In this document: positions 8,979 to 20,486 of the stretch, piece after piece
Layout of the letters: every line of letters begins with the position of its first letter
Numbering within the stretch: the stretch's first letter is position 1
Made by a program: the position numbers and the translations under genes
The notes under the pieces: model-generated
Told to the model about the DNA's origin: nothing
The model's database searches: none
The model's input: the letters and a program-made list of their open reading frames with translations, nothing else
Source: Propylenella binzhouense
GTDB taxonomy: Bacteria > Pseudomonadota > Alphaproteobacteria > Rhizobiales > Afifellaceae
Direction of reading: 5' to 3'
Length of the DNA: 64,000 nt
Assembly: GCF_009866965.1 (NCBI RefSeq)
Contig: NZ_SPKJ01000006.1
Location: forward strand, 1-64,000

Positions 8979-10361
8979 TCACCCCGATCCGCAGCCGTCA
9001 CAGACGTCGCCCGAGCCTACGAAAATCCTCGACCCGAAAGTCGGGATCCTGACACTCGCCTCAAAGCCCGACTCCTGGCCTGAACGCGGGGATCTTAGTA
9101 CCAGCGGACTTCCGATGCGATCAGCGATGGTGGCGACAATCGTCAGGCCTAACCCGCTGCCGTCGGAATGTGCGCCGGCGCGTTCGAAGCGGTCGGTCAG
9201 GCGGGATAACGTCTCAGGCGGCACGATCGGCCCTTCGTTTGCGACGATCAGTTCCCCGTCCGTCGCGAGCGTCACCTCGACGGGAGAGGTGGCGCTGCCA
9301 TGGCGCAGGGCGTTTTCGATGAGATTGCGGCATAGGATTCCTACAGCGTCCGGGTCGATGTCCGAGACCACTGGTTGATCAGGAAGTTTTAGAGCGATGC
9401 GATCAACCGTCGCGTTTCTCTTGATGTCCTCCACGACAATACGCATCACGTCACGCAGATCCGACATCCGATCCAGGCGCAGCCGTGCTCCCTCGGCCCT
9501 GGCCAGCTGCATCAGACGCTCGGCGCGGCGCGTCAGCCGCTTGAGCGTCGCCTCGATGTCGGCGGCTCGTTTCTTGGCCGCGGGATCGCCGGTTTCCGTC
9601 TGGAGGCGCTGCGCCTGTGCGATGGCAGCCGCCAGAGGGTTTCGCAGTTCGTGGGCGGCGTTGGCAGCGAAGCTGCGCTCGGCATCAAACGCCGCTTTGA
9701 GGTGGTCGAGGAGAGCATTGAGCGTCGTCGCCACCGGGGCGATTTCCGACGGGAGACCATCGGATGGCACAGGCGATAGGTCCCGTTCGTTGCGGGCCTT
9801 GAGCCTTTCGCGGAAACGCCGCAGAGGCGCGATGCTTGCCCGAACCGCGAAGACGATCACGATGAATGCGGCCGGGATGACGACGAGGATTGGCAGTCCA
9901 AGGCCCATCTGGATTTCTCGCGCGACCGCTGCGCGGTGCTCCAGGGGCTCGGCTACGGTGATCCGCACGCTGCCCTGCAGCGCTTCATCGTTGTAGAGCC
10001 TGTGGGTCGCGGTCTGGCGAAAGCCCGGTCCATCATAGGTCGGGAAGATTTTGGGGGCCGCCGCGTGCGATTGCAGCAGGATTCGCCCGTCCGCGTCTCT
10101 GACAACGTAGGTGAAGAACTCGTCGTGTTCGCGGATTGTCCCGAGCCGCTGGGTAACGCCATCTTCCTCGCGTCCAACGATATCCACGACGGCAAGCGGC
10201 AAGAGGCGCTGCGCGGTTTCCTGAAGCGCGGAGTCAAAGACCTCGTCCATTTCGTGCCGAAGGATCACGGCCGTCATGGAGGCAGCACCTATCCACAAAA
10301 GCGTCAGCAGAATCCCGATGGACAGCCCAAGCCGGGCCTGAAGGCTGTGCGGCGTTCTCAT
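8979..10361 (-). CDS. QseC/PmrB-like sensor histidine kinase of the metal/redox cargo
   Basis: 460 residues. TM1 is at about 11-34, then a periplasmic sensor (35-150, 2CSK_N type), TM2 at about 153-174, a HAMP-like linker, the H box 'FAANAAHELRNPLAA' with phosphoacceptor His237, N box 'NLIENALRHG' and G2 'GSGLGLTIVATIAD'. It overlaps the response-regulator gene upstream by 4 bp (ATGA), forming a two-gene operon divergent from the PepSY gene. A hairpin without a T run (8971-8985) overlaps the stop codon. The kinase should sense a periplasmic signal; the neighbouring genes suggest metal or redox stress. The ligand is not visible. Confidence 0.93.
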   Translation of the reverse strand: MRTPHSLQARLGLSIGILLTLLWIGAASMTAVILRHEMDEVFDSALQETAQRLLPLAVVDIVGREEDGVTQRLGTIREHDEFFTYVVRDADGRILLQSHAAAPKIFPTYDGPGFRQTATHRLYNDEALQGSVRITVAEPLEHRAAVAREIQMGLGLPILVVIPAAFIVIVFAVRASIAPLRRFRERLKARNERDLSPVPSDGLPSEIAPVATTLNALLDHLKAAFDAERSFAANAAHELRNPLAAAIAQAQRLQTETGDPAAKKRAADIEATLKRLTRRAERLMQLARAEGARLRLDRMSDLRDVMRIVVEDIKRNATVDRIALKLPDQPVVSDIDPDAVGILCRNLIENALRHGSATSPVEVTLATDGELIVANEGPIVPPETLSRLTDRFERAGAHSDGSGLGLTIVATIADRIGSPLVLRSPRSGQESGFEASVRIPTFGSRIFVGSGDVCDGCGSG

Positions 10362-11017
10362 GAGGAGCCCAACCGATAGCCAAGACCGCGTTCGGTCTCG
10401 ATCACTCCCGATCCGAGCTTCTTGCGCAGCCGGCTGACATGGACCTCGATGGTGTTGCTCTCCACCTCTGCGTCAAAGGCGTAGAGCTTTTCCTCGAGTT
10501 GCGCCTTGGACAGAAGTTGACCGGGGCGCGCGAGAAATGCTTCGAACAGCGCCCATTCGCGGGCGGTCAGTTGGACAGGCTTGCCGTCCCGACGGATGCT
10601 GCGGGACGCGAGATCGATGTCGAGCGCGCCGTGTGTGATGATCGGGTTCGGATTGCCCGTGTAGCGCCGTGCGACCGAGCCGATCCGCGCCGACAACTCG
10701 GCGAGATCGAACGGCTTCACGAGGTAGTCGTCGGCGCCGGCGTTCAGTCCCTCAATACGGTCGGAAACCTGGTCGAGCGCGGTCAGGATGATCACCGGCG
10801 TCACGTCGCCTCGGGCGCGTAGCGCCTTAAGGAACCCGATCCCCCGGCCGTCCGGCAGCATGAGATCGAGCAGGACCAGATCGTAGGCCGTCCCCGTCAT
10901 CGCATCACCCGCCGCATCGAGGCGGGTGGCCCAGTCCACGGACTGGCCGTCCCCGGCGATCTGGTCGCGCACGGCGGCGCCCAGAACAGAGTCGTCCTCG
11001 ATCAGCAGGATGCGCAT
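10358..11017 (-). CDS. OmpR-family response regulator (QseB/PmrA-like)
   Basis: 219 residues. Receiver domain 'MRILLIEDDSVLGAAVRDQI' with acidic pair D8/D9, phosphoacceptor Asp51 in 'LVLLDLMLPDG', 'ILTALDQ' and the 'VKPF' lysine. The C-terminal winged helix contains 'LTAREWALFEAFLARPGQLLS', 'NTIEVHVSRLRKKLG' and 'ETERGLGYRL', typical of the QseB/PmrA/TctD branch. It is transcribed away from the PepSY gene and shares that intergenic region, where a tandem TCAGG element lies. I infer that it activates the three cargo promoters carrying this element. Confidence 0.93.
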   Translation of the reverse strand: MRILLIEDDSVLGAAVRDQIAGDGQSVDWATRLDAAGDAMTGTAYDLVLLDLMLPDGRGIGFLKALRARGDVTPVIILTALDQVSDRIEGLNAGADDYLVKPFDLAELSARIGSVARRYTGNPNPIITHGALDIDLASRSIRRDGKPVQLTAREWALFEAFLARPGQLLSKAQLEEKLYAFDAEVESNTIEVHVSRLRKKLGSGVIETERGLGYRLGSS

Positions 11018-11072
11018 GGCTTTCCGTTTCCCTTCGTCTTCGTGACACCCCTTGTCCGCTCAGGCTGACGCA

Positions 11073-11114
11073 AAGCTGACGGTCTCGGGTCCAACGCTTC
11101 AGGATCCCGTCAGC
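11073..11114. promoter_or_regulatory. Bipartite regulator box upstream of the PepSY-b561 genes
   Basis: AAGCTGA starts at 11073 and TCAGGATCCCGTCAGC spans 11099-11114. The half-sites TCAGG and TCAGC are 11 bp apart, the tandem spacing used by OmpR-family regulators. The 26-bp offset between the two parts is identical at 12215/12241 and 13016/13042. It lies 48 bp before the PepSY start and in the divergent region shared with the regulator gene. Confidence 0.65.
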
Positions 11115-11162
11115 TTGGTCGCGCATGGTTCTGCCGAGTTGGCTGCACGATGGAGTTTGCCC

Positions 11163-11477
11163 ATGAAGAAGACACTGACAATTCTGGGCTTTCTCGCGTT
11201 GCTCCCGGCGGGGACCGCGTTCGCTGACGACGGCTGTTTCGCTCCCATGGCCAACTGGCAGCCGCGCGAGGCCGTGGCCCGGCTGGCCGAACAGAAAGGC
11301 TGGACCGTACGGCGGATCAAGATCGACGACGGGTGCTATGAGATCGACGGCAACGATGCAGAGGGGCGCCGGATCGAGGTGACGGTTCACCCCGCGACGC
11401 TTCAGGTGATCGAGATCGAATACGAGGACGACCGCGGCCGCCCGCGCCGCAATCGGGAGGAACAGAGCAATGACTGA
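11163..11477 (+). CDS. Secreted small PepSY-domain protein
   Basis: 104 residues from the ATG at 11163; longer in-frame starts exist upstream but would overlap the promoter element and hide the signal peptide. 'MKKTLTILGFLALLPAGTAFA' is a Sec signal peptide. The mature part reads 'DDGCFAPMANWQPREAVARL' and ends in a PepSY beta strand pair ('GCYEIDGNDAEGRRIEVTVH', 'ATLQVIEIEYEDD'), with two cysteines and an acidic tail. Such proteins sit next to cytochrome b561 and QseBC-like systems in many proteobacteria; their exact role is unsettled, perhaps metal or signal binding in the periplasm. It overlaps the next gene by 8 bp. Confidence 0.88.
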   Translation: MKKTLTILGFLALLPAGTAFADDGCFAPMANWQPREAVARLAEQKGWTVRRIKIDDGCYEIDGNDAEGRRIEVTVHPATLQVIEIEYEDDRGRPRRNREEQSND

Positions 11478-12912: not shown

Positions 12913-13015
12913 TAAGAGCCAGTCACGCAGCAAGGGCCAGTTCCCTCTCGCCTCTCGCGGTCAAATCGCGGCGCTGACGTAAGCCATAATAAGCGTTCTG
13001 TTCGTTCCTGACGCC

Positions 13016-13057
13016 AAGCTGAAGCGGAAACCTCGTCCCTGTCAGGAAGCCCTCAGG
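13016..13057. promoter_or_regulatory. Bipartite regulator box upstream of the poly-Asp gene
   Basis: AAGCTGAAGCGG starts at 13016 and TCAGGAAGCCCTCAGG spans 13042-13057. The second part is identical to that at 12241 and the offset is again 26 bp. It lies 45 bp before the next start codon and probably drives the large redox/efflux operon. Confidence 0.7.
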
Positions 13058-13102
13058 TGGCGTCTCCAGACTGGCCTCATTGGTTCAAAGGAGACCCACA
13101 CC

Positions 13103-13477
13103 ATGAAAAAGACCCTCGCCCTTCTCGTTGCTTCGACGGCCCTGACAGTGGCCATCGGCGTACCCGCATGGAGCGCCATGCGCGTCCCGCAGGATGACGC
13201 GAAACCCCAACCAATCGCCGCGCTCTTCGACGACGGACAGGAGGCGCTGCCACTCATCTTCGTCAGCGACGATGATGATGACGATGACGACGATCGCGAA
13301 GACCGCCGCTCGTCCCGCTACGGCGACGACGATGATGACGATGATGACGATCGCGAAGACGACGACGATGACGACGCATCTGGCGGCGCGCTCAATCCGG
13401 CGCCGGCCGGCACCGTCGCGCCGCCCCAGAACGGGCTCTTCGGAAACGGCGCGCCGCCGCAGATTCAGGTGAAGTGA
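13103..13477 (+). CDS. Secreted poly-aspartate protein
   Basis: 124 residues; AAAGGAG lies 9 nt before the ATG. 'MKKTLALLVASTALTVAIGV' begins a Sec signal peptide cleaved near 'PAWSA'. The mature chain holds two runs of nine Asp (56-64 and 75-83) and one of six (86-91), separated by short Arg-containing linkers, then a Pro/Gly-rich tail. No family is recognised. Clusters of Asp of this density bind divalent or trivalent cations with low affinity, so a periplasmic metal buffer or surface for metal capture is a reasonable inference. It is the first gene after the third regulator box and precedes the DUF2271-flavoreductase-ApbE genes. Confidence 0.75.
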   Translation: MKKTLALLVASTALTVAIGVPAWSAMRVPQDDAKPQPIAALFDDGQEALPLIFVSDDDDDDDDDREDRRSSRYGDDDDDDDDDREDDDDDDASGGALNPAPAGTVAPPQNGLFGNGAPPQIQVK

Positions 13478-13487
13478 ACCCGACTGT

Positions 13488-13531
13488 CACGTCCCATCTC
13501 CGAAGAAAGCACGTCCCATCTCCGAAGAAAG
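13488..13531. repeat. 22-bp perfect tandem duplication
   Basis: CACGTCCCATCTCCGAAGAA plus AG occurs at 13488-13509 and again at 13510-13531, ending just before the DUF2271 start. It fills almost the whole gap between two genes. The AGAAAG at the end of each copy could serve as a weak ribosome binding site. Confidence 0.85.
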
Positions 13532-13541
13532 AATGATTCCC

Positions 13542-14012
13542 ATGAAATCCGTTCTCGCAGCACTCGCGTTGACCACGGCGCTGACGCTTCCCGGGCTCGC
13601 CATGGCGCGGCCCGTGACGCTGACCACGACGCTCAACAACTACGGTGGCGATGGCGCCTACCTCGCCGTTTACGTCACCGATCCGCAAGGCGCCTATGCC
13701 GGCAGTCTCTGGATGGCCGGCGGCAAGTCGAAATACTACGAGCACCTCCCCGACTGGTACCGTGCCACCGGTGGTGACCCGGCCCAGATCAACGGCATCA
13801 CCGGCGCCAGCGTCGGGGCGGGCCGGACGCTCGAGATCACGCTCGATCTGGCCGATGCGCTGTTCGATGCCGGCTACACGCTGCACATCGACGCGGCCGT
13901 CGAGAACATGCGCGACAGCCCGAACGAGGTCGCCGTGCCGTTGACGACCGATGGCGCGGGCAGGCCGGCGCGCGGGCGCCGCTACATCGCCAGCTTCACC
14001 TATGCCATGTGA
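13542..14012 (+). CDS. Periplasmic DUF2271 protein, probable ApbE flavinylation substrate
   Basis: 156 residues from the ATG at 13542; an ATG at 13533 would add three residues. 'MKSVLAALALTTALTLPGLA' is a signal peptide. The mature fold is mostly beta strand ('TTTLNNYGGDGAYLAVYVTD', 'LWMAGGKSKYYEHLPDWYR'). The segment N-G-I-T-G-A-S (residues 84-90) resembles the D-x-x-[ST]-[GA]-A-[TS] motif where ApbE attaches FMN to Thr or Ser, with Asn in place of Asp. An ApbE gene and a flavoreductase follow in the same operon. It is therefore a likely periplasmic flavoprotein that accepts electrons from the membrane reductase. Covalent FMN is inferred. Confidence 0.82.
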   Translation: MKSVLAALALTTALTLPGLAMARPVTLTTTLNNYGGDGAYLAVYVTDPQGAYAGSLWMAGGKSKYYEHLPDWYRATGGDPAQINGITGASVGAGRTLEITLDLADALFDAGYTLHIDAAVENMRDSPNEVAVPLTTDGAGRPARGRRYIASFTYAM

Positions 14013-14024
14013 GGAGACACGGTC

Positions 14025-16232
14025 ATGATCCGCGCCCTCCATCGTTGGCCGGGTCTGCTGGCTCTGGCTCTCGTCACCGTTCTGGCGCTCAGCGGGGCGA
14101 CGCTGTCGGTCTTTCCTGCGGCGGAACGACTCGGCTCTCCGCAAGCCGAGGCCAGGCTCACAGTGGCCGACCTCGCCTCGCGTATCCAGGCCGTCTATCC
14201 GGGCGTCGAACAGATCCGGCGCGCGCCGTCGGGCCGGATCACCGCTTACTGGTTCAACGACGGCGCGCCGGGGGCCGCCGTCATCGACCCTGCAACAGGG
14301 CAAGGGGTCGCGTCGGCTGATCCCAATCAGGCCGAACGCTGGCTGACCAACCTGCACCGGTCCCTGTTCCTCGGCGACGGTGGCCGCGTCGCCATGGCAG
14401 CGGGCGCGGCCGCGATGCTTGTCCTGTCGCTCTCCGGCGCGGCTCTGGTCGCACGGCGGGCTGGTGGCTGGCGGCGCTGGTTTGCCCCGCTTCGCGGCCC
14501 GCTCTCGGGGCGGCTGCATGTCGAGATTGCCCGCGTCGCGGTTGCGGGTCTTGTCCTGTCCTCTGCCACCGCGCTGTGGATGACGGCCTCCACCTTCGAC
14601 CTTCTGCCCGATGGGAGCGCTGCGCCGGCAATTCCGGCTAAGGTGAGCGACAAGACCAGCGTGGCGACCGGCGCCATGGACCTGCTCGGCGCCACGCCAG
14701 TCGCCGAGCTGCGCGAGCTGAGCTTTCCCTATCCCGGCGACGCGAGCGACGTCTTCACACTGAAGACCGATCGGGGCACCGGATACCTCGATCAGGGGAC
14801 CGGCGCGCTGCTCGCCTGGGCCGATCTCACGGCATGGCAGCGTATCTCGGAAACGATCTACATGCTGCACACCGGTCAGGGCGCGTCCGTACTCAGCCTG
14901 GTGTTGGGACTGATGGCGCTGGGCGTGCCGGTGATGGGCGGGACGGGTGTCGTGGTCTGGCTCGCCGGGCAGCGGGGACGGGCGAGGATCAAGGGCAACG
15001 TCACAGCGAACCGTGCAGAGACGATCCTTCTGGTCGGCAGTGAGGGCGGCAGCACCTGGGGGTTTGCAGCGACGCTGCATCAGGCGCTGACCGAGGCGGG
15101 TCAGAGCGTTCACGCCGCTCCGATGTCGGCCTTCGATCCGGCCTGCTACGGAAAGGCACAGCGAATCCTGGTCCTGGCCGCCACATACGGCGACGGCGAC
15201 GCGCCTGCTTCGGCCAAAGGTTTTCTTGACCGCTTGGCGCGACTCGACGCACCGCCTGCCGCGCCCCTCGCCGTGCTGGGCTTCGGCGACCGGAGCTTCC
15301 CGGCCTTCTGCGCCTTCGCGAAGGCGGTGTCGGCCGTGGCGGAGGCGAAAGGCTGGCAGAAGCTTCTCCCCTTCGACACCGTGGACCGGCAGTCGCCGCA
15401 GGATTTCGCCCGCTGGGGCCGGATGCTCGGCACAGCCATGGAGATTTCGCTCGAGCTCTCCCATCAGCCCGTACGTCCTGCCGCGCATCCGCTGACGCTG
15501 GTCTCGCGCCGTGATTACGGGGCCGAGGTGCAGGCGCCGACCGCGATCCTGCGCTTCGCCCTGCCGAAGATTCCGCTGTGGCGGCGACTGACGGGACGCG
15601 GCTTCGGGCGCTTCCGGGCGGGCGACTTGCTCGGCATCGTGCCTGAAGGCTCTGCCGTGCCCCGCTTCTATTCGCTCGCTTCGGAAAGCCGCGACGGTTT
15701 CGTCGAGATCGTGGTGAAGAAGCACCCCGGTGGCCTTTCTTCCGGACAACTCATGGCGCTTGAACCGGGCGATGGCGTTTCCGCATTCCTCCGCCGCAAC
15801 TCCGACTTCCATGCGGGCCGGGGCCGCACGCCCCTGATCCTGGTCGGAGCGGGGACGGGCATCGGCCCGCTGGCGGGCTTCATCCGGGCGAACACGGCGC
15901 GGCGTCCTGTCCATCTGTTTTTCGGCATGCGTCATCCTGACAGCGACTTCCTCTATGGCGAGGAGCTCTCTGCCTGGCAGGACGAAGGTCGCCTCGCACG
16001 GCTCGTCACCGCGGTCTCGCGCGGGGCACGACCTCATTACGTGCAGGACGCGCTCCGCGCCGAAGCCGCAGACGTTGCCCGGCTGATCGGGGATGGGGCC
16101 CGCGTGATGGTCTGCGGTGGGCGCGACATGGCGGCCGGAGTCGCCGACGCGCTCGCCGACATACTCGCGCCCATCGGGCTGACGCCGGTCGCGCTCAAGG
16201 CGGAAGGACGGTATGTCGAAGATGTCTACTGA
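14025..16232 (+). CDS. PepSY membrane domain fused to flavodoxin and FNR-type reductase
   Basis: 735 residues. The N-terminal 320 are a PepSY-TM region with four membrane segments (about 10-30, 122-143, 168-188, 287-314), two periplasmic PepSY-like stretches, and candidate heme-ligating histidines H6, H111, H165 and H282. A flavodoxin domain follows (about 332-475, 'ILVLAATYGDGDAPASAKGF'), then an FAD domain with 'RFYSLAS' (547-553) and an NAD(P) domain with 'LVGAGTGIGPLAGFI' and a C-terminal 'ALKAEGRYVEDVY'. It resembles the reductase half of sulfite reductase or cytochrome P450 reductase joined to a heme membrane anchor. It should pass electrons from cytosolic NADPH across the membrane. It starts 12 bp after the DUF2271 gene and overlaps apbE by 20 bp. 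Confidence 0.9.
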   Translation: MIRALHRWPGLLALALVTVLALSGATLSVFPAAERLGSPQAEARLTVADLASRIQAVYPGVEQIRRAPSGRITAYWFNDGAPGAAVIDPATGQGVASADPNQAERWLTNLHRSLFLGDGGRVAMAAGAAAMLVLSLSGAALVARRAGGWRRWFAPLRGPLSGRLHVEIARVAVAGLVLSSATALWMTASTFDLLPDGSAAPAIPAKVSDKTSVATGAMDLLGATPVAELRELSFPYPGDASDVFTLKTDRGTGYLDQGTGALLAWADLTAWQRISETIYMLHTGQGASVLSLVLGLMALGVPVMGGTGVVVWLAGQRGRARIKGNVTANRAETILLVGSEGGSTWGFAATLHQALTEAGQSVHAAPMSAFDPACYGKAQRILVLAATYGDGDAPASAKGFLDRLARLDAPPAAPLAVLGFGDRSFPAFCAFAKAVSAVAEAKGWQKLLPFDTVDRQSPQDFARWGRMLGTAMEISLELSHQPVRPAAHPLTLVSRRDYGAEVQAPTAILRFALPKIPLWRRLTGRGFGRFRAGDLLGIVPEGSAVPRFYSLASESRDGFVEIVVKKHPGGLSSGQLMALEPGDGVSAFLRRNSDFHAGRGRTPLILVGAGTGIGPLAGFIRANTARRPVHLFFGMRHPDSDFLYGEELSAWQDEGRLARLVTAVSRGARPHYVQDALRAEAADVARLIGDGARVMVCGGRDMAAGVADALADILAPIGLTPVALKAEGRYVEDVY

Positions 16233-17199
16233 CTTTACGCGCCACGTGCTGAATGGCCCCACGATGGGCACGCGATGGTCGGCTCTGTTCCATGCGGTGG
16301 GGCAGCTCGACCCGGCTCCGATCCAGGCCGCGCTTCAGGCAGCAGTAGACGAGGTGGACGGGCAGATGTCCACGTGGAAACCCGACAGCGACCTGATGCT
16401 TCTGAATACGGCTCCGGTTGGGAAATGGTTGGCGGTGCCCGCACGGCTAATGGACGTTCTTCACCTCGGGCTCGGGATCGGGCGTGCGTCGGGCGGAGCC
16501 TTCGACATTGGCATGGGAGATGCGGTGAGGGCCTGGGGTTTTGGTCCGGAGGCCGCGTCGCCCGCGCGCATCCGTGCCGCGATGACTGCTCCGCGAGAGC
16601 CCGCACATGATGTGCTCGAACTCGACAAGGCGGCCGGTCGGGTGCGCAAGCTTGCCCCGATGACGCTCGATCTGAACGGAGTTGCCAAGGGCTACGGCGT
16701 CGACCGTCTGGCCGAGACGCTTATGGGGCTCGGGATCAACTCCGGCCTGGTCGGCATCGACGGCGAGATGCGCGCGCTCGGACTGAGGCCGGACGGTGAA
16801 CCCTGGACGATCGCGGTCGAGGCGCCCGACCCCCATCGGCGCACCCCGCACTCGATCCTCACCCTCGAGGGCGCCGCCGTCGCGACCTCCGGAGACTATC
16901 GTCACTGGGTCGAGGTGCGGGGACGGCGCCTGTCGCACACGATGAACCCGCGCCGTGGAGCGCCACTCGTGGACGCACCCGCCTCCGTCACGGTCGTTGC
17001 GCGAAGCTGCGCGGAGGCCGATGCATGGGCGACCGCGCTCATGGTTCTCGGCGCCGAGGCAGGCACGAAGCTCGCGCGGCAGCATCGGCTCGACGCGCTC
17101 TTTCTGGTGCGCGATGCTGAGGCAAGGACCCGCGGTCTGCGAGTCGGACGCCTGTTTTCCGAAGAGCCAGCGGCGATCGCCTCGGCCGAGGGGAGTTGA
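16213..17199 (+). CDS. apbE: ApbE-type FAD:protein FMN transferase
   Basis: 328 residues. ApbE motifs are in order: 'GPTMGTRWS' near the start, 'GAFDIGMGDAVRAWGFGP', 'LDLNGVAKGYGVDRLAETL', 'GIDGEMRALG', 'VATSGDYRHWV', 'SHTMNPRRGAPL' and the metal-site 'CAEADAWATALMVLG'. It transfers FMN from FAD to Thr/Ser of target proteins; the DUF2271 protein two genes upstream is the obvious target. Unlike most ApbE proteins it shows no signal peptide or lipobox, so either it works in the cytosol or a different start is used. It overlaps both neighbours (20 bp and 4 bp), so it is tightly coupled in the operon. Confidence 0.93.
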   Translation: MSKMSTDFTRHVLNGPTMGTRWSALFHAVGQLDPAPIQAALQAAVDEVDGQMSTWKPDSDLMLLNTAPVGKWLAVPARLMDVLHLGLGIGRASGGAFDIGMGDAVRAWGFGPEAASPARIRAAMTAPREPAHDVLELDKAAGRVRKLAPMTLDLNGVAKGYGVDRLAETLMGLGINSGLVGIDGEMRALGLRPDGEPWTIAVEAPDPHRRTPHSILTLEGAAVATSGDYRHWVEVRGRRLSHTMNPRRGAPLVDAPASVTVVARSCAEADAWATALMVLGAEAGTKLARQHRLDALFLVRDAEARTRGLRVGRLFSEEPAAIASAEGS

Positions 17200-19112
17200 G
17201 CCGCATGGAACACACAAGTACTGACCGCTTGAAGACCGTCCTCTTGCTGGTCGCACTGGCAGGCCTCGTGACGGGACTTGCCCCTTACTTCGCCGGCAGG
17301 ACTGATGCGGCCGGCATCGCCTGGTTCGTCGGTGTTATTCCGGTTCTGGCCGCTCTTCTGATCGAGATTCTGCGCAGCCTATGGCGGGGCGAGGTCGGGC
17401 TCGACATCGTCGCGGCTTTGTCCATGTCTACGGCTCTTGCCTTTGGCGAGACGCTGGCGGCGGCCGTCGTCGCCGTGATGTATTCCGGTGGCACCTTTCT
17501 CGAGAGTTTCGCCGAAGGCCGTGCGCGGCGCGAGATGCGCGACCTCTTGTCGCGCGTTCCTCGAACCGCGACCCGGCATCGGAACGGTGGTCTCGAGGAC
17601 GTGCCCCTCGATGAGATCGAGCCGGGCGACCGGCTGCTGATCCGGCAGGGCGACGTGGTGCCGGTCGACGGCACGCTGGCGTCGGATGCGGCCTACCTCG
17701 ACACCTCTGCCCTGACGGGTGAATCGCTGCCCGCGCGCCTGTCACGCGGGGCGGACGCCATGAGCGGATCGACCAACGCGGGCGAGGCCTTCGACCTGAC
17801 TGCCACTCGCCCTGCGAAGGAAAGCACCTATGCCGGAATCGTCCGGCTGGTCGAGGAGGCGCAGCGGTCCAAGGCGCCGATGTCGCGACTGGCGGACCGC
17901 TGGTCGCTGGGCTTTCTGGCCGTTACCGTCGCGATCGCCTTTGCCGCCTGGTGGTTCACGGGCGATCCGATTAGGGCCGTCGCCGTATTGGTCGTGGCGA
18001 CCCCCTGTCCGCTGATCCTGGCGGTTCCGGTCGCACTGGTGGCCGGCCTGTCGCGGGCGGCGCATTTCGGCGTCCTCATCAAGGGGGCCGGCCCGCTCGA
18101 AACAATGGCGCGCATCCGCACGCTGATCCTCGACAAGACCGGCACGCTGACCGACGGGCGCCCGCAGATCGTCGCGATCGACAGCCACGACGGCATGGCC
18201 GAACAGGATATCCTCCGCCTCGCTGCCGGGCTGGAGCAGGCGTCGAAACATCCCGTCGCGCAGGCCATCGTGGTGGCGGCCAAAGCGCTGGGTCTTTCGT
18301 TGTCCGTGCCCTCGGAGGTCGCCGAGGTCCCGGGCGAAGGCGTCGTCGGAAGCGTCGACGGGCACAAGGTCATTGTGGGCGGCGATGACTTCGTGGCGAA
18401 GCGTGTGGGGCGAAGAGTGGGCGACCATCCGGCCCTTGCGGCGGGGTCGGTCCTCGTCGCCGTCGCGGTGGACGGTCATATGGTAGGGCATCTCGTCATG
18501 GCCGATCCCCTTCGAGAAGATGCCGCAGCCATGCTCGACGGGCTTCGCCGCGAAGGTATCGGGCGCATCCTTCTGGCGACGGGCGACCGGGTCCAGGTGG
18601 CCGAACGCGTGACGGAAGGTCTTGGCTTCGACGGGCTCCGGGCCGGACTAACCCCCGATCAGAAGGTTCTTCTCGTCCTGACCGAGCGGAAGAACGGCCC
18701 CGTGATGATGGTCGGCGATGGCGTGAACGACGCACCCGCGCTCGCCGCGGCGGACGTGGGCGTGGCCATGGGCGCCCGCGGCGCCGCTGCCTCGGCCGAA
18801 GCCGCCGACGTCGTGCTGCTGGTCGACCGGATCGACCGGCTCGGACCGGGGATCGAGATTGCCCGGCGCTCCCGGCGCATCGCGGTCGAAAGCGTCGTGG
18901 CAGGTATCGGCCTCTCCGTCCTCGGCATGGTGGCCGCCGCGTTGGGTTACCTGACCCCCGTGCAGGGAGCGCTCATTCAGGAGGCCATCGATGTCGCCGT
19001 CATCCTGAATGCGCTGCGCGCGCTGCGCATCGAACCCCACGAAGCCTCAGTGTCAGAACGCATTGCCGAGATGCCTGTTCGCGACGCCATTTTGAAAGGA
19101 ACGGTGTCATGA
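17196..19112 (+). CDS. P1B-type heavy-metal-transporting ATPase with TPC motif
   Basis: 638 residues, short because the N-terminal metal-binding domain is absent. P-type motifs: 'SALTGESLPARL', 'VVATPCPLILAVPVALVAG' in the membrane, phosphorylation site 'DKTGTLTDGRP', 'EQASKHPVAQAI' (HP motif) and 'MVGDGVNDAPALAAADVGVAMG'. The intramembrane motif is T-P-C-P rather than C-P-C. From family knowledge, TPC belongs to the P1B-5 group, where characterised members export Fe(II) and Ni(II) and often carry a hemerythrin domain at the C-terminus. Here the hemerythrin-like part is a separate exported protein in the same island. It overlaps the next gene by 4 bp. Metal specificity is inferred. Confidence 0.92.
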   Translation: MSRMEHTSTDRLKTVLLLVALAGLVTGLAPYFAGRTDAAGIAWFVGVIPVLAALLIEILRSLWRGEVGLDIVAALSMSTALAFGETLAAAVVAVMYSGGTFLESFAEGRARREMRDLLSRVPRTATRHRNGGLEDVPLDEIEPGDRLLIRQGDVVPVDGTLASDAAYLDTSALTGESLPARLSRGADAMSGSTNAGEAFDLTATRPAKESTYAGIVRLVEEAQRSKAPMSRLADRWSLGFLAVTVAIAFAAWWFTGDPIRAVAVLVVATPCPLILAVPVALVAGLSRAAHFGVLIKGAGPLETMARIRTLILDKTGTLTDGRPQIVAIDSHDGMAEQDILRLAAGLEQASKHPVAQAIVVAAKALGLSLSVPSEVAEVPGEGVVGSVDGHKVIVGGDDFVAKRVGRRVGDHPALAAGSVLVAVAVDGHMVGHLVMADPLREDAAAMLDGLRREGIGRILLATGDRVQVAERVTEGLGFDGLRAGLTPDQKVLLVLTERKNGPVMMVGDGVNDAPALAAADVGVAMGARGAAASAEAADVVLLVDRIDRLGPGIEIARRSRRIAVESVVAGIGLSVLGMVAAALGYLTPVQGALIQEAIDVAVILNALRALRIEPHEASVSERIAEMPVRDAILKGTVS

Positions 19113-19810
19113 GCCGGCTCTCGCATTCCGAAATCCACATGGTTCACCGCATCGGCTGGCTTCGCGCCGCGGTGCTTGGGGCCAATGACGGCCTCGTGTC
19201 GACCTCGAGCCTTGTCGTGGGCGTTGCCGCGGCTGGGTCTGGACGGACCGAGGTGCTGATCGCCGGATTGGCGGGGCTTGTGGCCGGCGCGATGTCCATG
19301 GCGGCGGGCGAGTATGTGTCGGTCAGTTCCCAGACCGACGCCGAGAAGGCCGATGTCGCGCGCGAAACCCGCGAACTCGCGGAAACGCCGGAAGCCGAAC
19401 TTGAAGAACTCACGCGGATCTATGTCGGACGCGGGCTTGATCGTGATCTCGCCGAAAGGGTGGCGGTTCAGCTGACCGAACGGGACGCCCTCGGCACACA
19501 CGCCCGCGACGAACTCGGCATATCCGAGACCGTGACGGCGCATCCGATCCAGGCCGCGGTCGTGTCCGCTCTGACCTTCGCGGTCGGCGCCGTCGTTCCT
19601 CTGATCGTCGCGCTCTTGTCTCCGCCGGCGCAAATCACTCTGGTGGTCGCCGCTTCCACCATTGTCGGCCTGGCGGTGCTGGGAGGGTTGGGAGCGTCCG
19701 CAGGCGGCGCCGGCATTGTTCGGGGCGCCGCACGGGTGACCGTCTGGGGTGCCCTTGCGATGGCCGCCACGGCAGTGGTCGGAATGATTTTTGGGGTCAA
19801 TGCAGGATAG
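19109..19810 (+). CDS. VIT1/CCC1-family iron/manganese transporter
   Basis: 233 residues. 'GWLRAAVLGANDGLVSTSSLVVGVAAAG' is the signature first helix of the family, followed by 'LAGLVAGAMSMAAGEYVSVSSQTDAEKADV', a cytosolic acidic helical region (about 70-140, 'EETRELAETPEAELEELTRIY'-like) that binds metal in homologues, and three more membrane helices at the C-terminus. VIT/CCC1 proteins move Fe(II) or Mn(II) out of the cytosol. It is the last gene of the operon and overlaps the ATPase gene by 4 bp, giving two different metal exporters side by side. Confidence 0.92.
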   Translation: MSRLSHSEIHMVHRIGWLRAAVLGANDGLVSTSSLVVGVAAAGSGRTEVLIAGLAGLVAGAMSMAAGEYVSVSSQTDAEKADVARETRELAETPEAELEELTRIYVGRGLDRDLAERVAVQLTERDALGTHARDELGISETVTAHPIQAAVVSALTFAVGAVVPLIVALLSPPAQITLVVAASTIVGLAVLGGLGASAGGAGIVRGAARVTVWGALAMAATAVVGMIFGVNAG

Positions 19811-20486
19811 AAGATGGCAACGGAGGTGGAGAAGATTAGGTTGTCATGGACAAAGCTTGACGCTGGACTCGGCGCGTGGGCGAACGGACTCTTCAAGAGC
19901 CGCTCTTTAGAGCTACGCTGAATCGGCAGGCGCTCACTATGATCGACGGTGGCACCGTTTCGGCCTAATCGGCTCGGACCTGATAAGTCGCAAAGCCTAC
20001 CTCTCTGGAGGCAGATCTCGCCGACGTCATAGTGCTATGGCGTAAACGTAGTGCTCATTACTATCGGTCGCGGCCCGCCATCAACTCGCTCACGGCAGTT
20101 TCGCTTCGCTCAACGCCTCCGCGGGGGCGGCCTTTCGGCCGGTCGCGCAGTCGCGCTCCTGCCGGAGAGTTCGAACTGTCGCCCGAACTCTCCGCCACTT
20201 CGCGGCCGGTTGCCCTCTATGGCGCGCTGTTGCCGCCGATCACCGCACGCTGCAGAGCGATGTGGTAAATCGCCGTCTGCATGCGGTCGACAATCCGCCT
20301 GCACCGGGACCGAAGCTCTCGGCCCTGATGCGCCGGGTTCCCGCACCGGTTCGCCGCAATCAAACCCCGAGAGGTCATGATCGGGCGTCAGCGCAACGGG
20401 AGCAGAGAGGGCCAGTTCTGACGGTTCCGGCGTTTCGCCTATTTCTGCCTCGCGGCCGCCGATGTTCCACGACAGGATGATGCTTC
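19811..20486. other. Intergenic stretch without supported genes
   Basis: About 680 bp after the VIT gene. Short frames on both strands are Arg/Pro-rich and match nothing I recognise. A weak hairpin (AAGAG-CCG-CTCTT, 19895-19907) follows the operon and may aid termination. The run 'TTTCGCTTCGCTCAACGCC' near 20099 resembles the low-information DNA often seen at the ends of integrated elements. Confidence 0.45.

Follow-up and report, generated by a model that had tools for sequence, protein, structure and literature searches.

The missing signal peptide of an ApbE enzyme, and not the Asn residue in the flavinylation motif of its predicted substrate, a DUF2271 protein, is the real finding in the DNA of Propylenella binzhouense analysed here (the window: 64,000 nt of contig NZ_SPKJ01000006.1). 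Judged from sequence comparisons, it is probable (about 0.7) that this ApbE flavinylates the DUF2271 precursor in the cytosol and that the precursor is exported by Sec afterwards, within a PepSY/DUF2271 operon for electron transfer and metal handling.

The DUF2271 operon and its gene products

The operon is compact, lies on the plus strand and comprises the genes for a poly-Asp protein, the DUF2271 protein, a PepSY_TM reductase, ApbE, a P1B-type ATPase and VIT1; apbE is thus co-operonic with DUF2271, as stated in the initial annotation. The interval considered there (13542-17199) ends with the ApbE ORF at 17199, but the first 9 bases of the DUF2271 ORF lie outside it, and the PepSY_TM-flavodoxin-reductase gene between both (14025-16232) was left out.

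The DUF2271 protein (13533..14012, + strand; 159 amino acids; PF10029, E 8e-35) is predicted to be exported and to accept covalent FMN. Its domain is preceded by a clear Sec-type signal peptide of approximately 25 residues (13533..13607, +; MIPMKSVLAALALTTALTLPGLAMA, hydrophobicity heuristic), in agreement with the export claimed previously, and by the hydrophobic-stretch heuristic all 163 non-fusion loci showed such a signal. Export of the folded holo-protein by the Tat system was discarded, as the twin arginine is absent here and from nearly all relatives. The motif NGITGAS (residues 87-93; 13791..13811, +) is located at a column that was aligned in all loci and at which most DUF2271 proteins show Dxx[ST]GA[ST]; it contains TGAS in accordance with [ST]GA[ST]. 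Ser93 is the predicted FMN-linked residue. In a structure model (pLDDT 74.8) the motif falls in a low-confidence loop. Fold comparison with this model yielded no significant PDB match, and a sequence search for a solved DUF2271 structure found none. The window genome possesses only one DUF2271 gene.

The adjoining gene (14025..16232, +) encodes a PepSY_TM-flavodoxin-FAD/NAD(P)-binding reductase of 735 amino acids (PF03929, PF00258, PF00970, PF00175) with four predicted transmembrane helices and a CysJ-like C-terminus; the flavodoxin part is placed in the cytosol by the transmembrane and positive-inside check. It is adjacent to both DUF2271 and apbE, the feature by which a PepSY-like flavinylation cluster is recognised. 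In PepSY helix 1 of the window protein an SGAT sequence occurs, which was rejected as a second ApbE target because it is not conserved (SGAAL in 75 relatives). A 959-aa open frame on the opposite strand (13392-16271, -), antisense to the DUF2271 and reductase genes, looks like a GC-rich mirror ORF and not like a gene.

ApbE (16213..17199, +; 328 amino acids; PF02424, E 4e-77) reached 259.6 bits against a curated cut-off of 25.6 and is predicted to be an FAD:protein FMN transferase. In a full-length alignment to 6nxi/6nxj, 5mgy and 4xgw, with the V. cholerae and E. coli enzymes as reference, the catalytic Ser, His and Asp columns were kept (ATSGDYR, LSHTMNP, AEADAWATALM), which bears out the intact catalytic motifs described before. 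A signal peptide with lipobox, characteristic of periplasmic lipoprotein ApbEs, is absent. Reading on from the in-frame stop, the first possible start codon (ATG, GTG or TTG) is the ATG at 16213; it is situated a few codons before the end of the reductase gene, which apbE overlaps by 20 nt. The in-frame stop rules out alternative starts further upstream, and a signal peptide therefore cannot be regained by extending the N-terminus. Such an extension had been named in the initial annotation as the observation that would overturn the absence of a signal sequence; it was looked for and excluded, and this absence holds, there being no room upstream. The PGAP annotation of the Thioclava plasmid pLX01 gives the same overlapping start, and in 75/78 close loci the ApbE domain follows the upstream stop at a distance of no more than 25 codons. 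Apart from this cluster enzyme the window genome has no ApbE, and a search of it for the ApbE substrates FMN_bind, NqrB/RnfD and DUF3570 found none.

Upstream of DUF2271, an exported protein with long Asp runs (DDDDDDDDD) is encoded (13103..13477, +). It belongs to no Pfam family, has a homologue in 70/80 close loci, and may possibly bind metal as a partner of the DUF2271 system. Downstream, a P1B-type heavy-metal ATPase of the Zn/Cd family (17196..19112, +; TIGR01525/TIGR01512 over cut-off; 50/80 close loci) and a VIT1-family Fe/Mn transporter (19109..19810, +; PF01988, E 1e-66; 42/80 close loci) follow. A divergent two-component system (8979-11017, -) and a PepSY_2 protein (11052-11477, +), both kept in most close loci, likely constitute a metal-responsive regulator; a cytochrome b561 gene is also located upstream of the operon. 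Related operons were found on about 80 named contigs, mostly from Rhodobacterales and some from Rhizobiales. The whole operon including P1B-ATPase and VIT1 (window 13000-19900) occurs on Rhodobacterales plasmids (H1-H15), with coverage of 80% or more of this region in 50 plasmid records; the one plasmid checked, from Thioclava, is conjugative (MOBP/MPF_T). Horizontal acquisition of the operon is probable, since DUF2271 was not detected in any of the ten genomes sampled from the family to which the window belongs.

Distribution and phylogeny of the ApbE without signal peptide

A further 87 DUF2271 loci were drawn from proteobacterial genomes, and signal peptides were judged by a hydrophobic-stretch heuristic over every possible start instead of SignalP. 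The ApbE beside DUF2271 lacked a signal peptide in all 78 close loci, and so did the cluster ApbEs of the other fused-type loci (20/20); in the fused-type raw positives L029 and L151, what the heuristic picked up is the ApbE domain. Of the non-fused cluster ApbEs, 40/41 lack the signal on reading and 37/41 by the raw heuristic. Among the raw positives of this type (4/41), L189 alone was read as carrying a genuine lipoprotein signal, and L173, L174 and L187 were read as having none. The ApbEs encoded outside the clusters in these genomes served as a control; 47 of 54 showed a lipobox, Sec or Tat signal.

All 80 searched DUF2271 genomes contain an ApbE, and 50 of them exactly one. According to tallies counted by hand from the locus and genome tables, this sole enzyme is the cluster ApbE in 37/50 genomes (L174 and L187 among these), while in 13/50 the cluster lacks apbE and the sole ApbE is encoded at another locus and has an export signal, which in most cases is a clear lipobox. 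In Gammaproteobacteria, it is apparently a lipoprotein ApbE that serves the DUF2271 clusters. Single-chain fusions of ApbE and DUF2271 were also observed (L217, L218, L220, L221, L168); all five carry an N-terminal signal peptide, and the motifs of such fusions deviate (DGVTRPT, DAMSGPT, HGIARET).

In a quick tree (n=127), the cluster ApbEs of the fused and the non-fused type each formed one group and jointly one clade, with the lipoprotein ApbEs of NQR/RNF systems as sister group. A careful tree (n=87) supported the clade with 100/99 and recovered it in 200/200 bootstrap trees. Since the cluster ApbEs form a single clade, the simplest account is one loss of the signal and its return in L189, the lipoprotein ApbE inside the otherwise signal-less clade. 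As the loci share this ancestry, they do not count as separate tests, and the weight of the argument is the long-term maintenance of the signal-less state across the clade. Outside DUF2271 clusters, ApbE-like proteins without signal peptide also occur in distant proteobacterial relatives, where they form a small clade of their own (L277, L278, L290, L291).

A further observation concerns a single frame of 792 amino acids on contig 1 of genome G037 (L154:5570-7948), in which PepSY_TM, flavodoxin and ApbE are fused and the FAD/NAD-binding reductase part is missing. It adjoins a second DUF2271 gene with the motif DGITGAS. No transmembrane helix lies between flavodoxin and ApbE, and the ApbE part is predicted to be on the cytosolic side, because four transmembrane helices and positive-inside loops put the flavodoxin there. 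This fusion was found in one genome only; no more were detected in 14 family relatives or in plasmids.

Order of flavinylation and export

We infer the compartment, the order of events, the electron path and the metal substrate as follows. ApbE would act in the cytosol on cytosolic FAD and Mg2+, so that no FAD export would be needed, and would attach FMN to Ser93 of the still unfolded DUF2271 precursor. The FMN-bearing precursor would be exported by Sec and would fold in the periplasm. Electrons might then pass from NAD(P)H via the flavodoxin-reductase part and the PepSY membrane helices to the periplasmic DUF2271 flavin, and would probably serve the reduction of Fe(III) or of another metal handled by VIT1 and the P1B-ATPase. 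Metal reduction is consistent with the linkage to VIT1 and the ATPase and with the EDTA sensitivity of Caulobacter, in which disruption of the PepSY/DUF2271 locus (CCNA_03155-03159) lowers fitness under EDTA (PMC11870441).

Attachment before export is probable because ApbE has no export signal here and clade-wide. Of the two alternatives considered in the initial annotation, FMN addition before export or a different export of ApbE, the first is better supported: besides the signal-less clade, the sole ApbE in the window and in 37 genomes, the lack of another detected substrate in the window genome and the cytosolic fusion favour it. Seven residues suffice as a tag for ApbE (PMC12052999), and folding of DUF2271 is therefore not needed for flavinylation. 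According to PMC6028853, citing Bonardi 2011, SecYEG passes preproteins with rigid organic groups, and its lumen can reach approximately 2.4 nm. It appears fairly likely from the sequences that the whole ApbE clade moved to the cytosol while its substrate is still exported by Sec, and that the flavin crosses SecYEG on an unfolded chain without any export of FAD. Cytosolic loading is opposed by the fact that we know of no Sec substrate that carries covalent FMN, by the signal-bearing ApbE-DUF2271 fusions and by the gammaproteobacterial clusters, which apparently use a lipoprotein ApbE.

The main rival explanation, which we regard as unlikely, is that ApbE itself is carried into the periplasm, either by non-classical export or together with a partner, and that DUF2271 is flavinylated in that compartment. 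In PMC12052999 and in PMC8238504, signal-bearing substrates of ApbE are generally held to be flavinylated outside the cytosol, and the latter describes the ApbE of the only co-expressed DUF2271 pair as 'signal peptide-truncated'. As L189 in addition carries a lipobox, periplasmic action is possible for some clade members, and the signal peptides of the ApbE-DUF2271 fusions point in the same direction. However, Sec does not transport folded partners, which argues against ApbE riding with one, and the DUF2271 signals are of the Sec type with almost no twin arginine; moreover, the PepSY-flavodoxin-ApbE fusion sets ApbE at the cytosolic face, and the signal-less trait is maintained over the whole clade. 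It is quite improbable that the cytosolic ApbE instead serves another cytosolic or membrane substrate and leaves DUF2271 unmodified in these organisms. Klebsiella has an ApbE that acts in the cytosol on a substrate likewise located there (PMC12052999), and the SGAT in PepSY helix 1 could offer a target; but this SGAT is not conserved, the window genome contained none of the other substrates searched for, the fused-type loci have retained the DUF2271 motif, and homologous DUF2271 is flavinylated (PMC8238504).

A loss of function, in which Asn at motif position 1 blocks flavinylation and ApbE is vestigial, is very improbable. The canonical ApbE motif starts with Asp (PMC12052999), whereas the window protein has Asn; the DUF2271 motif is defined without this Asp, as [ST]GA[ST], in PMC8238504. 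In the close set, Asn occurs beside an intact ApbE with kept catalytic columns in 75/81 loci and Asp in 6/81, a count of N that is perhaps somewhat inflated because one of the peptide patterns with which this set was collected contained 'NGI'. Loci of the PepSY-reductase type keep the motif as [NDS]xx[ST]GAS, those outside the close set with D in 13, N in 6 and S in 2, and the type without fused reductase has D in 59/61. On a poorly resolved DUF2271 tree, calculated with the motif column blanked, Asn exchanged with Asp or Ser about nine times, and the consequences of an Asp-to-Ala exchange at this position were only minor in a related substrate (PMC12052999). Owing to the lineage rule, these switches and the minor Asp-to-Ala effect, Asn for Asp in NGITGAS is, as far as the alignments tell, natural variation and unremarkable; the resemblance to the ApbE target noted in the initial annotation was confirmed at the expected column, yet is ordinary. 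A further departure from [ST]GA[ST], in which Pro replaces Ala (DGVTGPT, DGVSAPT), was observed in L161, L162, L175, L177, L178, L180, L183 and L184, in clusters with signal-less ApbE.

Relation to known ApbE systems

In Meheust et al. 2021 (PMC8238504), PepSY-like flavinylation clusters resemble the window in containing PepSY_TM, DUF2271, ApbE and sometimes VIT1, and PepSY_TM with an NAD-binding domain is reported for 1077 clusters. There, DUF2271 was shown to be flavinylated on [ST]GA[ST]: the A. ursilacus protein is flavinylated by its cognate ApbE (WP_053936888.1), but no longer when the Thr is exchanged for Ala. The role of DUF2271 as an ApbE substrate in PepSY operons is therefore already established by mutagenesis. 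These clusters differ from the window lineage in its Asn at motif position 1; flavinylation is treated as extracytosolic, and the text consulted contains no remark on cluster ApbEs without signal peptide. The ApbE acting on a soluble fumarate reductase in Klebsiella (PMC12052999) likewise lacks a signal peptide and is cytosolic, but its substrate is cytosolic as well, whereas the DUF2271 substrate of the window has a signal peptide. The lipoprotein ApbEs of NQR/RNF in E. coli and V. cholerae share the family and the catalytic residues with the window enzyme, but carry a lipobox signal that the DUF2271-cluster clade does not have. Among open PMC papers, no report of a signal-less ApbE paired with an exported substrate was found.

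Extracytosolic flavoproteins are thought to gain their covalent flavin after export, which requires periplasmic FAD. Where the ApbEs of a clade have no signal peptide but their substrates are exported, the reverse order is implied: a cofactor-loaded protein would pass through the Sec channel. The order of flavinylation and export thereby becomes testable with one enzyme and one protein of 159 residues, and the finding suggests a possible practical route for the export of flavin-tagged proteins.
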